This document shows, piece by piece, positions 57,190 through 60,797 of a DNA stretch of 64,000 bases. The stretch covers positions 376,929-440,928 of the forward strand of contig PTEU01000001.1 of the NCBI GenBank assembly GCA_004359425.1. The letters run 5' to 3'. Numbering within the stretch: position 1 is the stretch's first letter; each line of letters starts with the position of its first letter. This DNA comes from Ideonella sp. MAG2 (GTDB lineage: Bacteria > Pseudomonadota > Gammaproteobacteria > Burkholderiales > Burkholderiaceae_C). The notes under the pieces are model-generated. The model worked only from the letters and a program-made list of their open reading frames with translations. It did no database searches and was not told the DNA's origin. The position numbers and the translations under genes are program-made.

Positions 57190-58512
57190 CTAAGGCGATG
57201 TGCGGAACTCAGCGCGCCCCCAGCGGATGCGCAGCAGCGCGGCCAGAGTGGCGCTGATCCCTGCGGCTACTAGGCACCACCACCCCGTGGGGTCGTGTGC
57301 TTCGCTGATGGCGACAAGCAGCATGCTGAGGAGTGTGACGAACACCGGCAGTGGCGCAAAGTTCAGACGGTTGGAATGGGTGGAAGCAATGTAGAGCCAC
57401 ATATGCGCCGAGAAGACTGCGGCCAGCCCAGTCCACAGCATGAGGGCAGGCAGGTCATTCCAGCGGAAATCGGCGTAAAACACCGCGAACAAGCTCAGCA
57501 AGACATTGACGAGTAGCCAGCGTTTGAGGGCCTCCGCGCCTGTTAGGCGCATCAACTGCAGGCTAGTGTTCGGTCGCCGCAGCCCTCCCGGCACCAGCCA
57601 CGCGCGGGGCGCGATCTTCCAACCCATGGCAGCGCCGCCTGAGCCACCGGCCCATGGCATGCAGAAGGATGTGATGACCCAGGCGGCGGTCCAGATCATG
57701 CCCTTAGAGAATGTGTTCTCTTGCAGGGAATCTATGGGGTGGAACAGCAGAATGGCCAAGCCCATGACAGTCAAGGCCATCCACCAACGCTGATGCGGCT
57801 CTGTTCGAAGGTGCACTAGACCATGCAGCAAAGAGGCCTTCACGAAACCTTTCGGCGGTGAAGGTGTATAGGCGGCTAAACCAAGGCCAGGGCCCGGCGC
57901 ACAGGGTACCGGCGTGCGGCCTGCTTGGATCAAATGCAATCGCGTGCGCGTCCAAACCCATGCTGCTCCGATCGTGAAGAGGCCGCTGATGACGAGCATG
58001 AGCGGCGTGCCGATTTGAAGCGCTTGAAGTCGTTGCCAAGTGCCTTCCTTAAGGAACTGTGGAACCATGACTGGAAGTACCAAAATGAAGGCGGCATGCT
58101 TGCGCGGCCAAGCGATGCTCAAGCCGAGGGTAACGCCCAGCATCAACAGGGCGGTGTGCCACCACCACACCCACAGGCCCTCATTGGTCTGGGTCAGTAC
58201 CGAGGCAGGGACGACCAAGGCCAGCCACCAAAACGCGATGAGCACTGCAAGCCAATGGTTCAGATTCACCCTGGCCCAGTGTTGTGTCTCTGGACGTCTT
58301 ATAGCGAGCCCAAGATGGTTGCCGAGCAACGCACACTGAAGGAAAGGTCCGAAGAGAATCATCAGACTGACTCTGAGATCGATAGACGGGGCGGGCGTTG
58401 TTTGCAGGCCTAGAGCCCAAAGCGCTACCGCTGGGCACAACCCGATGAACAACGCTCCCACATGTCCCACCTTCGCCCCGCGCCACAGGGTCAGTGCCAG
58501 CCCCGGCCTCAT
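57190..58512 (-). CDS. Large membrane subunit of ABC exporter (YtrC-like)
   Basis: The 440-residue protein has about 11-12 hydrophobic segments and no recognised catalytic motif. It starts four bases inside the ATPase stop (overlap 58509-58512), so it is the partner of that ATPase. A family of large membrane proteins of this kind pairs with Ytr-type ATPases. The substrate is unknown. Confidence 0.78.
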   Translation of the reverse strand: MRPGLALTLWRGAKVGHVGALFIGLCPAVALWALGLQTTPAPSIDLRVSLMILFGPFLQCALLGNHLGLAIRRPETQHWARVNLNHWLAVLIAFWWLALVVPASVLTQTNEGLWVWWWHTALLMLGVTLGLSIAWPRKHAAFILVLPVMVPQFLKEGTWQRLQALQIGTPLMLVISGLFTIGAAWVWTRTRLHLIQAGRTPVPCAPGPGLGLAAYTPSPPKGFVKASLLHGLVHLRTEPHQRWWMALTVMGLAILLFHPIDSLQENTFSKGMIWTAAWVITSFCMPWAGGSGGAAMGWKIAPRAWLVPGGLRRPNTSLQLMRLTGAEALKRWLLVNVLLSLFAVFYADFRWNDLPALMLWTGLAAVFSAHMWLYIASTHSNRLNFAPLPVFVTLLSMLLVAISEAHDPTGWWCLVAAGISATLAALLRIRWGRAEFRTSP

Positions 58513-59228
58513 GCTTGGGCCTCGCTGACGAACAGGTCTTCCAGCGCTTGGTGGCGCTGCTCCTGCAGCTCATCCCACGGCGCGTTGAGCACCACTTGGC
58601 CGTCCTTGAGCATCACCAAGTGGGTGATCACGCGCTCCAGGTCGCTGAGCAGGTGGCTAGAGATCACGACGGTGCGCGGCGTGGCCCGCTCGGCGTCTGT
58701 CTCAAACAGCACTCGCATGAAGTCTCGGCGGGCCAAAGGGTCGAGGTTGGAGACGGGTTCGTCCAGCAGCAGCACATCGGGGTCATGCGCCAGGGCCAGC
58801 ACGATCTCCAGCTTTTGCTGGTCGCCTCCACTCAGCGCCGCCACCTTGGTGGCCTCGCTCAAGGCCAGGCGTTGGCAGAGTTGGCGGGCGCGTTCAGGTG
58901 TCCACCGCGCATAAAAGCTGCCGATGTACTCGATGTGTTGCCACACCGTCAGCCAGGGCAGCAGGTCGGGAGCCTGCCCCGCAAAGCCCAGCCGCTCGCG
59001 CACGGCGTCACTCAAGTCCATGCTGTCGCAACCCAGCACCGAGGCTTGCCCGCTGCTCGGTGGCGTGAGCCCGGCCCAACAGCGCAGCAAGCTGCTTTTG
59101 CCCGCCCCATTGCGGCCCACCAGGCCGACGACCGCTCCTGTGGGGATGTCCAGTGAGGTGGGCTGCAAGACGGTGTGCGAGCCGTAGCTCAGGCAAAGCT
59201 GATGCAGAGAAAGTGCAGAGCGGTTCAT
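58509..59228 (-). CDS. ABC transporter ATP-binding protein
   Basis: The 239-residue ATPase is typical: Walker A 'VGLVGRNGAGKSSLLRCWAGL' (about 33-53), a Q-loop region, signature 'ALSGGDQQKLEIVLALAHDP', Walker B 'VLLLDEPVSNLDPLARRDFM', and H-loop 'VISSHLLSDLE'. It pairs with the permease at 57190 and is probably repressed by the GntR at 59280. Confidence 0.94.
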   Translation of the reverse strand: MNRSALSLHQLCLSYGSHTVLQPTSLDIPTGAVVGLVGRNGAGKSSLLRCWAGLTPPSSGQASVLGCDSMDLSDAVRERLGFAGQAPDLLPWLTVWQHIEYIGSFYARWTPERARQLCQRLALSEATKVAALSGGDQQKLEIVLALAHDPDVLLLDEPVSNLDPLARRDFMRVLFETDAERATPRTVVISSHLLSDLERVITHLVMLKDGQVVLNAPWDELQEQRHQALEDLFVSEAQA

Positions 59229-59279: not shown

Positions 59280-59684
59280 TCAAGACGCTGTCTCGTGAGC
59301 GTTGTGGGCTGCGTGCAGCGCTTGCTCAAACGCCGCCAGGGCTTCTTCTGGCGAGAGGCCCAGTTGCTGGGCTTGCCGCGCGGCGGCTTCAAGCGTGGGC
59401 ATCAGCAGCGCGGTGCGTTGGTCGGCTTGAGCTTGGCTTTGGTCGGCCACCACCATGCCCATGCCACGCCGTCGTGCCAGCAGGCCTTCAGCCTCCAGTT
59501 GGCTGTAGGCCTTGGAGACGGTCATGGGGTTGATGGCATGGGTCAGAGCCACGGCGCGCACGCTGGGCAGCTCGTGGCCTGCGGGCCAGTGGCCCCCGGC
59601 GATGTAGCGACGTACCTGGTCCACGATCTGGCGGTAGATCGGGGTTGGGTCGCTGGGTGTGACGGCAAAGTCCATTGGCTGCAT
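59280..59684 (-). CDS. GntR regulator, YtrA subfamily
   Basis: The 134-residue protein has a winged helix 'PIYRQIVDQVRRYIAGGHWPAGHELPSVRAVALTHAINPMTVSKAYSQLEAEGLL' (about 15-70) and a short tail of about 60 residues, as in YtrA-type GntR proteins, which usually repress ABC operons. It is first in the minus-strand group GntR-ATPase-permease. The perfect palindrome at 59687-59708 abuts its start codon, which suggests autoregulation. Confidence 0.92.
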   Translation of the reverse strand: MQPMDFAVTPSDPTPIYRQIVDQVRRYIAGGHWPAGHELPSVRAVALTHAINPMTVSKAYSQLEAEGLLARRRGMGMVVADQSQAQADQRTALLMPTLEAAARQAQQLGLSPEEALAAFEQALHAAHNAHETAS

Positions 59685-59686
59685 TG

Positions 59687-59708
59687 GTGTATTAATTCAA
59701 TAATACAC
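59687..59708 (-). promoter_or_regulatory. GntR operator overlapping the -10 box
   Basis: Perfect arms GTGTATTA and TAATACAC enclose 6 bases, ending just three bases before the gntR start codon. The minus-strand -10 box TATTAT (59705-59700) lies inside it, so a bound repressor would block RNA polymerase. This is the strongest operator candidate in the window. Confidence 0.7.
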
Positions 59709-59729
59709 ATGCTGTGCCATACCAGTCAA
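59700..59729 (-). promoter_or_regulatory. Promoter of the GntR-ABC operon
   Basis: On the minus strand, TTGACT (59729-59724) and TATTAT (59705-59700) are 18 bases apart. Transcription would start near 59693, so the leader before the ATG at 59684 is only about 9 bases, with no Shine-Dalgarno sequence: a nearly leaderless message. Confidence 0.6.
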
Positions 59730-59828
59730 CGGGACCTTTGTCAGGAGTTGAGCAATTCGTTGAGCGCTTCGCCCAAAGGCTCCAACGGTACGACGGGGCA
59801 GAGCACATGGCTCTAGCCGTGCGGGGAA

Positions 59829-60797
59829 TCAGGCCGCGTTTTTCAGCGGCGGTCGCTTGCTGTGTTCCAAGATCTGTTCGACCAAAGTGCGCTTGCGAGA
59901 TTCGGCCTGCTCATTCGGCCCCTGGCAAGTGCCCGCCGCATGGTGGCCGCCGCCGCCGTGTTCCAGCATCAGCGCGCCCACGTCCATGGGGTTGCGGCGT
60001 CCGAAGATGGACTTGCCCACGGTGTAGACGGTGTTCTGCTTGTCGCGGCCCCACATGACGTGCATGGAGATGTCGCACTGCGGGAACATGGCGTAGACCA
60101 CAAAGCGGTTGCCCGCAAAGATGGTGTCTTCCTTGCGCAGGTCCAAGATGACAAGGTTGTCGTGGACTTCGGCCACGCGCTGGATCTGCTCGCGGAACAG
60201 GGCGTGCTGGGCAAAGAACAGGTCGACCCGTTCTTTGACATCGGGCAGCGCCAAGATGTCGGCGATGGGCATGTCGCGGCAGCACTCAATGAGCTGCATC
60301 ATCAACTGGTAGTTGGAAATGCGGAACTCTCTGAAGCGGCCCAATCCGGTGCGGGCATCCATCAAAAAGGACAGCAGCTCCCAGCCTTGCGGGTGCAGCA
60401 CATCGGCTTCGGTGAAACCGGCGGAGTCCGCCTTGTCCACGGCGTGCATCATCTCTTCGCTGATGCGCGGGAAGTGGGCCTTGCCGCCAAAGTGCTCGTA
60501 GACCACACGGGCGGCTGATTTGGCGTCGGCCTTCAGCACATAGCCCGGCGTGGGTTTGCCGCTGTTGCGGTCGGCTTCGCTGGAGTGGTGGTCAAAACAC
60601 ATGCCGCAACCCGGCACATAGGGCAGGTTGGTAAGGATGTCTTGGGCCGTCACCGCAATCTTGCCGTCTTGCATGTCTTTGGGGTGTACAAAGACGATCT
60701 CGCCCAGCATGTCCATTTCTTTGAGCAGCACGGCGCAGACCAGGCCGTCCATATCGCTGCGGGTCAATAGACGGTACTTTTGAGCGGCAAAGGTCAT
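59829..60797 (-). CDS. DHH/DHHA1 family phosphoesterase
   Basis: From ATG 60797 the 322-residue protein begins 'MTFAAQKYRLLTRSDMDGLVCAVLLKEM' (Asp-x-Asp of the DHH family), has 'CGMCFDHHSSEADR' (DHH motif) and 'LEHGGGGHHAAGTCQ' (DHHA1 GGGH). It is a nucleic-acid or nucleotide phosphoesterase; whether it acts on nanoRNA, c-di-nucleotides or polyphosphate cannot be decided. The track's 33-residue extension is not supported by a ribosome binding site. Confidence 0.9.
   Translation of the reverse strand: MTFAAQKYRLLTRSDMDGLVCAVLLKEMDMLGEIVFVHPKDMQDGKIAVTAQDILTNLPYVPGCGMCFDHHSSEADRNSGKPTPGYVLKADAKSAARVVYEHFGGKAHFPRISEEMMHAVDKADSAGFTEADVLHPQGWELLSFLMDARTGLGRFREFRISNYQLMMQLIECCRDMPIADILALPDVKERVDLFFAQHALFREQIQRVAEVHDNLVILDLRKEDTIFAGNRFVVYAMFPQCDISMHVMWGRDKQNTVYTVGKSIFGRRNPMDVGALMLEHGGGGHHAAGTCQGPNEQAESRKRTLVEQILEHSKRPPLKNAA

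Follow-up and report, generated by a model that had tools for sequence, protein, structure and literature searches.

What is the function of a perfect palindrome that lies over the -10 box of a gntR gene and ends two bases short of an ATG, and is the gene behind it translated from a nearly leaderless transcript? Here, we report an analysis of this locus in a 64,000-nucleotide stretch of DNA from Ideonella sp. MAG2 (the window, in which all coordinates are given unless stated otherwise), for which a sequence-only reading had proposed both near-leaderless translation of the regulator and autorepression of a GntR-ABC operon. We are confident that the locus is best explained as a combined operator and promoter through which a YtrA-type GntR repressor controls its own ABC operon, with the regulator presumably translated from ATG 59675 independently of a Shine-Dalgarno (SD) sequence.

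The regulator gene (59280 to 59684, minus strand; Pfam GntR) encodes 134 amino acids from ATG 59684 or 131 amino acids from ATG 59675, which is the preferred start. Its GntR winged helix-turn-helix domain (PF00392; E value, 1.4e-14) spans residues 17 to 79 and is followed by a C-terminal part of about 55 amino acids with no further Pfam domain, matching the reduced C-terminal domain of the YtrA subfamily (about 50 residues, without a FadR, HutC, or MocR effector domain). The best solved relatives are mostly GntR proteins of 113 to 134 amino acids, and the closest named relative, from Ideonella paludis, is 85% identical. As in other YtrA-type operons, an ABC transporter gene follows: the ATPase gene (58509 to 59228, minus strand; Pfam ABC_tran, 8e-28), second in the presumed operon, starts about 51 nt downstream of the regulator gene and overlaps by 4 nt the gene of a hydrophobic protein of 440 amino acids (57190 to 58512, minus strand), the presumed permease, which had no Pfam or NCBIfam match. 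Of 73 homologous loci, 72 have a same-strand ABC gene directly behind the regulator gene. The regulator was assigned to the YtrA subfamily as described previously (PMC4494728).

The presumed regulator site is a 22-bp dyad (GTGTATTA-TTGAAT-TAATACAC; 59687 to 59708, minus strand), a perfect 8 + 8 inverted repeat with arms at 59687 to 59694 and 59701 to 59708 and a 6-nt spacer; on the minus strand, its edge is separated by 2 nt from the ATG at 59684 to 59682. Among perfect 8 + 8 repeats with AT-rich arms, it is the only one in the window (0.15 expected), and a palindrome pattern with a 1-nt spacer had no match, the real spacer being 6 nt. The exact motif occurs at a single site in the whole 4.39-Mb genome. 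A near-match scan of the genome, allowing 3 mismatches, returned 4 places versus 5 for the control, which is chance level apart from the true site. With its ends reading GT-N18-AC and one site per genome, the dyad has the form known for the subfamily, in which one long palindrome, ending in GT and AC far apart, precedes the regulator's own operon. The operator of a YtrA regulon in Xanthomonas citri is reportedly GGTG-N16-CACC, and the GTG-N16-CAC ends of the Ideonella dyad would agree with this pattern.

Read on the minus strand, a -35 box TTGACT (59724 to 59729) is followed after 18 nt by a -10 box TATTAT (59700 to 59705) and then by TGAATTAATACACCAATG. This pair agrees with the sigma-70 consensus at 10 of 12 positions and resembles a promoter more closely than any other site within the 7 kb around it. 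The -10 box falls within the left operator arm and the first spacer base, bearing out the earlier description of a perfect palindrome over the -10 box, and several relatives share it in an identical register. TTGAC likewise recurs in relatives: 24 of 66 loci have it 14 to 22 nt upstream of the operator, whereas 0.45 loci would be expected. From the position of the -10 box, transcription is predicted to start at about 59693 (minus strand), inside the right operator arm.

Across loci, the offset of the -35 box from the operator varies together with the position of the -10 box. An offset of 21 is combined with TATTAT at operator positions 4 to 9 in the Ideonella gene, L009, and L015 (L030 is in the same group, but its -35 box reads TTGTCA), and an offset of 17 to 18 is combined with TACTGT-like boxes at positions 7 to 12. 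At an offset of 14 (L074, L075, and L077), the spacing fits only TGTAGT at positions 10 to 15; the hexamer match alone favors another register. Because the two elements shift together, the comparison speaks for a genuine promoter embedded in an operator that stays in place. An alternative promoter (ATGGCA-17-AATTAA, with a start at ATG 59684) was rejected by eye as a poor match that is absent in L009. No terminator was found between the upstream gene and the regulator gene, so read-through from upstream is possible; the upstream same-strand gene (59829 to 60797) had a weak, sub-threshold DHHA1 match.

Homologs of the regulator were searched for in 401 family genomes, 53 of which carried one. 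Using the consensus GTGTAYTA-N6-TARTACAC and a call threshold of at least 12 of 16 positions, an operator was detected near the gene start in 56 of 60 family loci versus 82 of 12,000 shuffled regions; at 14 or more positions, the counts were 46 of 60 and 1 of 12,000 (the shuffled regions keep base composition but not dinucleotides). With order-level and other relatives added, including Lysobacter, the operator stood at the same place in 66 of 70 loci at the call threshold, so the check proposed by the sequence-only reading, whether homologous gntR genes are preceded by the palindrome, was positive. The strongest conservation test was a scan for the exact motif, because it is independent of the gene: the motif was present in 7 of 121 family genomes, once in each and always directly before a gntR homolog, and there were no hits for the control. 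A recognizable operator was not found at 4 of 70 loci (L027, L034, L067, and L068). The L027 and L034 genes are regulator homologs (57% identical) in GC-rich contexts. Half-site changes are mostly symmetric, which fits a site bound by a dimer: of 66 loci, 37 have T/A at operator positions 6/17 and 21 have C/G. Mapped on the protein tree, the C form of position 6 requires 6 changes, and the half-sites have therefore changed more than once. The conservation of the palindrome is not due to chance.

Since the operator is kept at nearly all loci and the exact motif stands exclusively before a gntR homolog, the best reading is very probably autorepression of the GntR-ABC operon, and this part of the earlier proposal, an operator over the -10 box, gains strong support from the comparative evidence. 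The dyad, the promoter match, its conservation, the exclusive linkage to a gntR gene, and the operon context can be read from the sequences themselves; binding, repression, transcript start, and start codon we infer as follows. A repressor dimer would bind the two GTGTA half-sites of the dyad and, by analogy with the PmtR and YtrASa sites at the transcription start, exclude RNA polymerase by covering the -10 box and the predicted start of transcription. Some ligand or stress would release the repressor, so that regulator and transporter would be induced together. The transcript would begin near 59693. Translation of the regulator would most likely start at ATG 59675, some 18 nt from the 5' end of the mRNA, and would use ordinary initiation without an SD sequence rather than the leaderless mode.

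It is very improbable that the palindrome belongs to another regulator, such as one of the TetR type, that happens to control the operon. Its 8-bp arms and 6-bp spacer do recall TetR-type operators, for example the AcuR site, but in all 7 genomes with the exact motif, it occurs once and stands before a gntR gene, which argues for the GntR protein itself, as do the distant GT/AC ends, a described property of YtrA operators (PMC4494728). The view that the repeat arose by chance in AT-rich DNA, or that it forms a hairpin in the leader RNA, can practically be dismissed: AT-rich promoters raise the odds of short palindromes, but not to a level that would account for retention at 66 of 70 loci when 0.15 such repeats are expected in the window, and an RNA starting inside the right arm, as predicted, would not contain both arms of a hairpin.

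The third alternative concerns translation and is the one that the sequence-only reading had favored, namely, that the transcript starts about 9 bases before ATG 59684 (59682 to 59684, minus strand) and that initiation is leaderless or near leaderless. We consider this unlikely. Leaderless is taken here to mean that no more than 10 nt of transcript, if any, precede the start codon, with the start site at this locus being a predicted one. Promoter geometry does give a leader of about 9 nt to ATG 59684, as had been stated; a second in-frame ATG lies nine bases further downstream (59673 to 59675, minus strand), however, and from there the leader would be about 18 nt. It is this second ATG that is conserved, aligning with the start of 11 other relatives, and the resulting 12 sequences, including Ideonella, begin 11 residues before a conserved PIY in an N terminus of the form M-x-F-x-I...PIY or similar. 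The ATG adjoining the operator shares the reading frame of the gene in Ideonella, L009, and L020 (shifted by one codon in the last), but L012, L016, and L018 have it in another frame. Given the conservation of ATG 59675 and these frame differences, ATG 59684 is probably not the start codon here; its in-frame position in Ideonella, L009 (85% identical), and L020 means that these few members may nevertheless use it.

The second argument for a near-leaderless start, the missing SD sequence, is correct as an observation, with no SD match of at least 4 nt before ATG 59684 or ATG 59675, but it is not distinctive of leaderless mRNA, because such starts are common in the window: in a rough count with a crude choice of genes, an SD match of at least 4 nt precedes the first ATG in 19 of 52 long open reading frames and is missing in about 33 of 52, and the downstream ABC ATPase gene lacks one as well. 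Predicted leaders of relatives are mostly about 15 to 25 nt long; about 10 relatives have AGGA (in some AGGAG) or a longer SD match, and most have none. Short leaders do have precedents, both in Burkholderia cenocepacia, where 114 genes have a 5' untranslated region (UTR) of 10 nt or less and regulators are enriched among the coding ones (PMC4603805), and in AcuR of Rhodobacter, a leaderless autorepressor with its operator over the promoter (PMC3017554). In the same Burkholderia species, 5' UTRs of 17 to 126 nt account for 75% of those mapped (PMC4603805), so that leaders of about 9 and about 18 nt are both known situations. The predicted 18-nt leader falls in the ordinary range, and with the likely start codon corrected, the reason to think translation unusual at this locus is removed.

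A further point in favor of short leaders comes from L074, L075, and L077 (Lysobacter and related), in which the start ATG lies directly at the operator edge and TTGACA or TTGATT begins 36 nt upstream of it. A truly leaderless transcript is predicted for Lysobacter-type relatives only, Lysobacter arseniciresistens among them. A class-wide search yielded one more relative, whose family added none, and the leaderless arrangement thus rests on three loci. Tentatively, the operator may be the fixed element of the regulator family, along which the promoter slides in steps of about 3 to 4 bp. The -35 box might then begin about 21, 17 to 18, or 14 nt upstream of the operator, with the -10 box possibly at operator positions 4 to 9, 7 to 12, or 10 to 15, and the leader could range from about 18 to 20 nt, with or without an SD sequence, to none at all in Lysobacter-type members. 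If this somewhat doubtful scheme is true, the family would be a natural series for studying the origin of leaderless repressor genes.

An operator overlapping its own promoter is the usual design for the family of the regulator. The locus resembles those of Bacillus YtrA, Staphylococcus PmtR, and archaeal YtrASa in its short GntR protein, in a regulator gene located within the operon that it controls, in a palindrome that has its GT and AC ends far apart and covers the transcription start or lies close to it, and, presumably, in autorepression, which has been shown for PmtR (36-bp site over the transcription start; PMC5080381) and YtrASa (site centered on the transcription start; PMC6746942). 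It differs from all three in its operator sequence, GTGTAYTA-N6-TARTACAC, and from PmtR in lacking an SD sequence. The acuR operon of Rhodobacter sphaeroides shares the 8-bp arms, the 6-bp spacer, an operator (TAATAGAC-N6-GTCTATTA) overlapping a promoter with the -10 box TATTAT, the absence of an SD sequence, and the regulator gene in first place (PMC3017554), but AcuR belongs to the TetR family, not to GntR, and its transcript begins exactly at the ATG, whereas the Ideonella leader is predicted to have 18 nt or, less likely, 9 nt. HpaR1 of Xanthomonas campestris is likewise a YtrA-subfamily protein that represses its own gene, as the Ideonella regulator would; unlike the latter, it is a global regulator that activates many genes, with half-sites 1 bp apart at the gumB site (PMC4730234). 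The Ideonella regulator and its operator are a further case of the known YtrA type and supply a betaproteobacterial operator missing from a 2015 comparative survey, which held 0 betaproteobacterial YtrA regulators (PMC4494728); YtrA-type regulators of Burkholderiales, a group without a member in that survey, thereby gain a well-supported operator motif.

Two minor observations concern the neighboring gene and the rest of the genome. Compared with its Ideonella paludis counterpart, the presumed permease is 52% identical (best segment), and it seems to be evolving unusually fast, because the regulator and the ATPase are 85% and 92% identical, respectively. A second YtrA-type gene is present in the same genome (L002, 1452 to 1836; C2:1004353 to 1004719, plus strand), directly preceded by one of the 3-mismatch matches of the genome scan. 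It has an operator-like dyad, GTGTGCTACATCACCAACACAC, directly upstream and AGGA ahead of its ATG, and it is followed by an apparent ABC gene, giving the same layout, but with a leader and an SD sequence.
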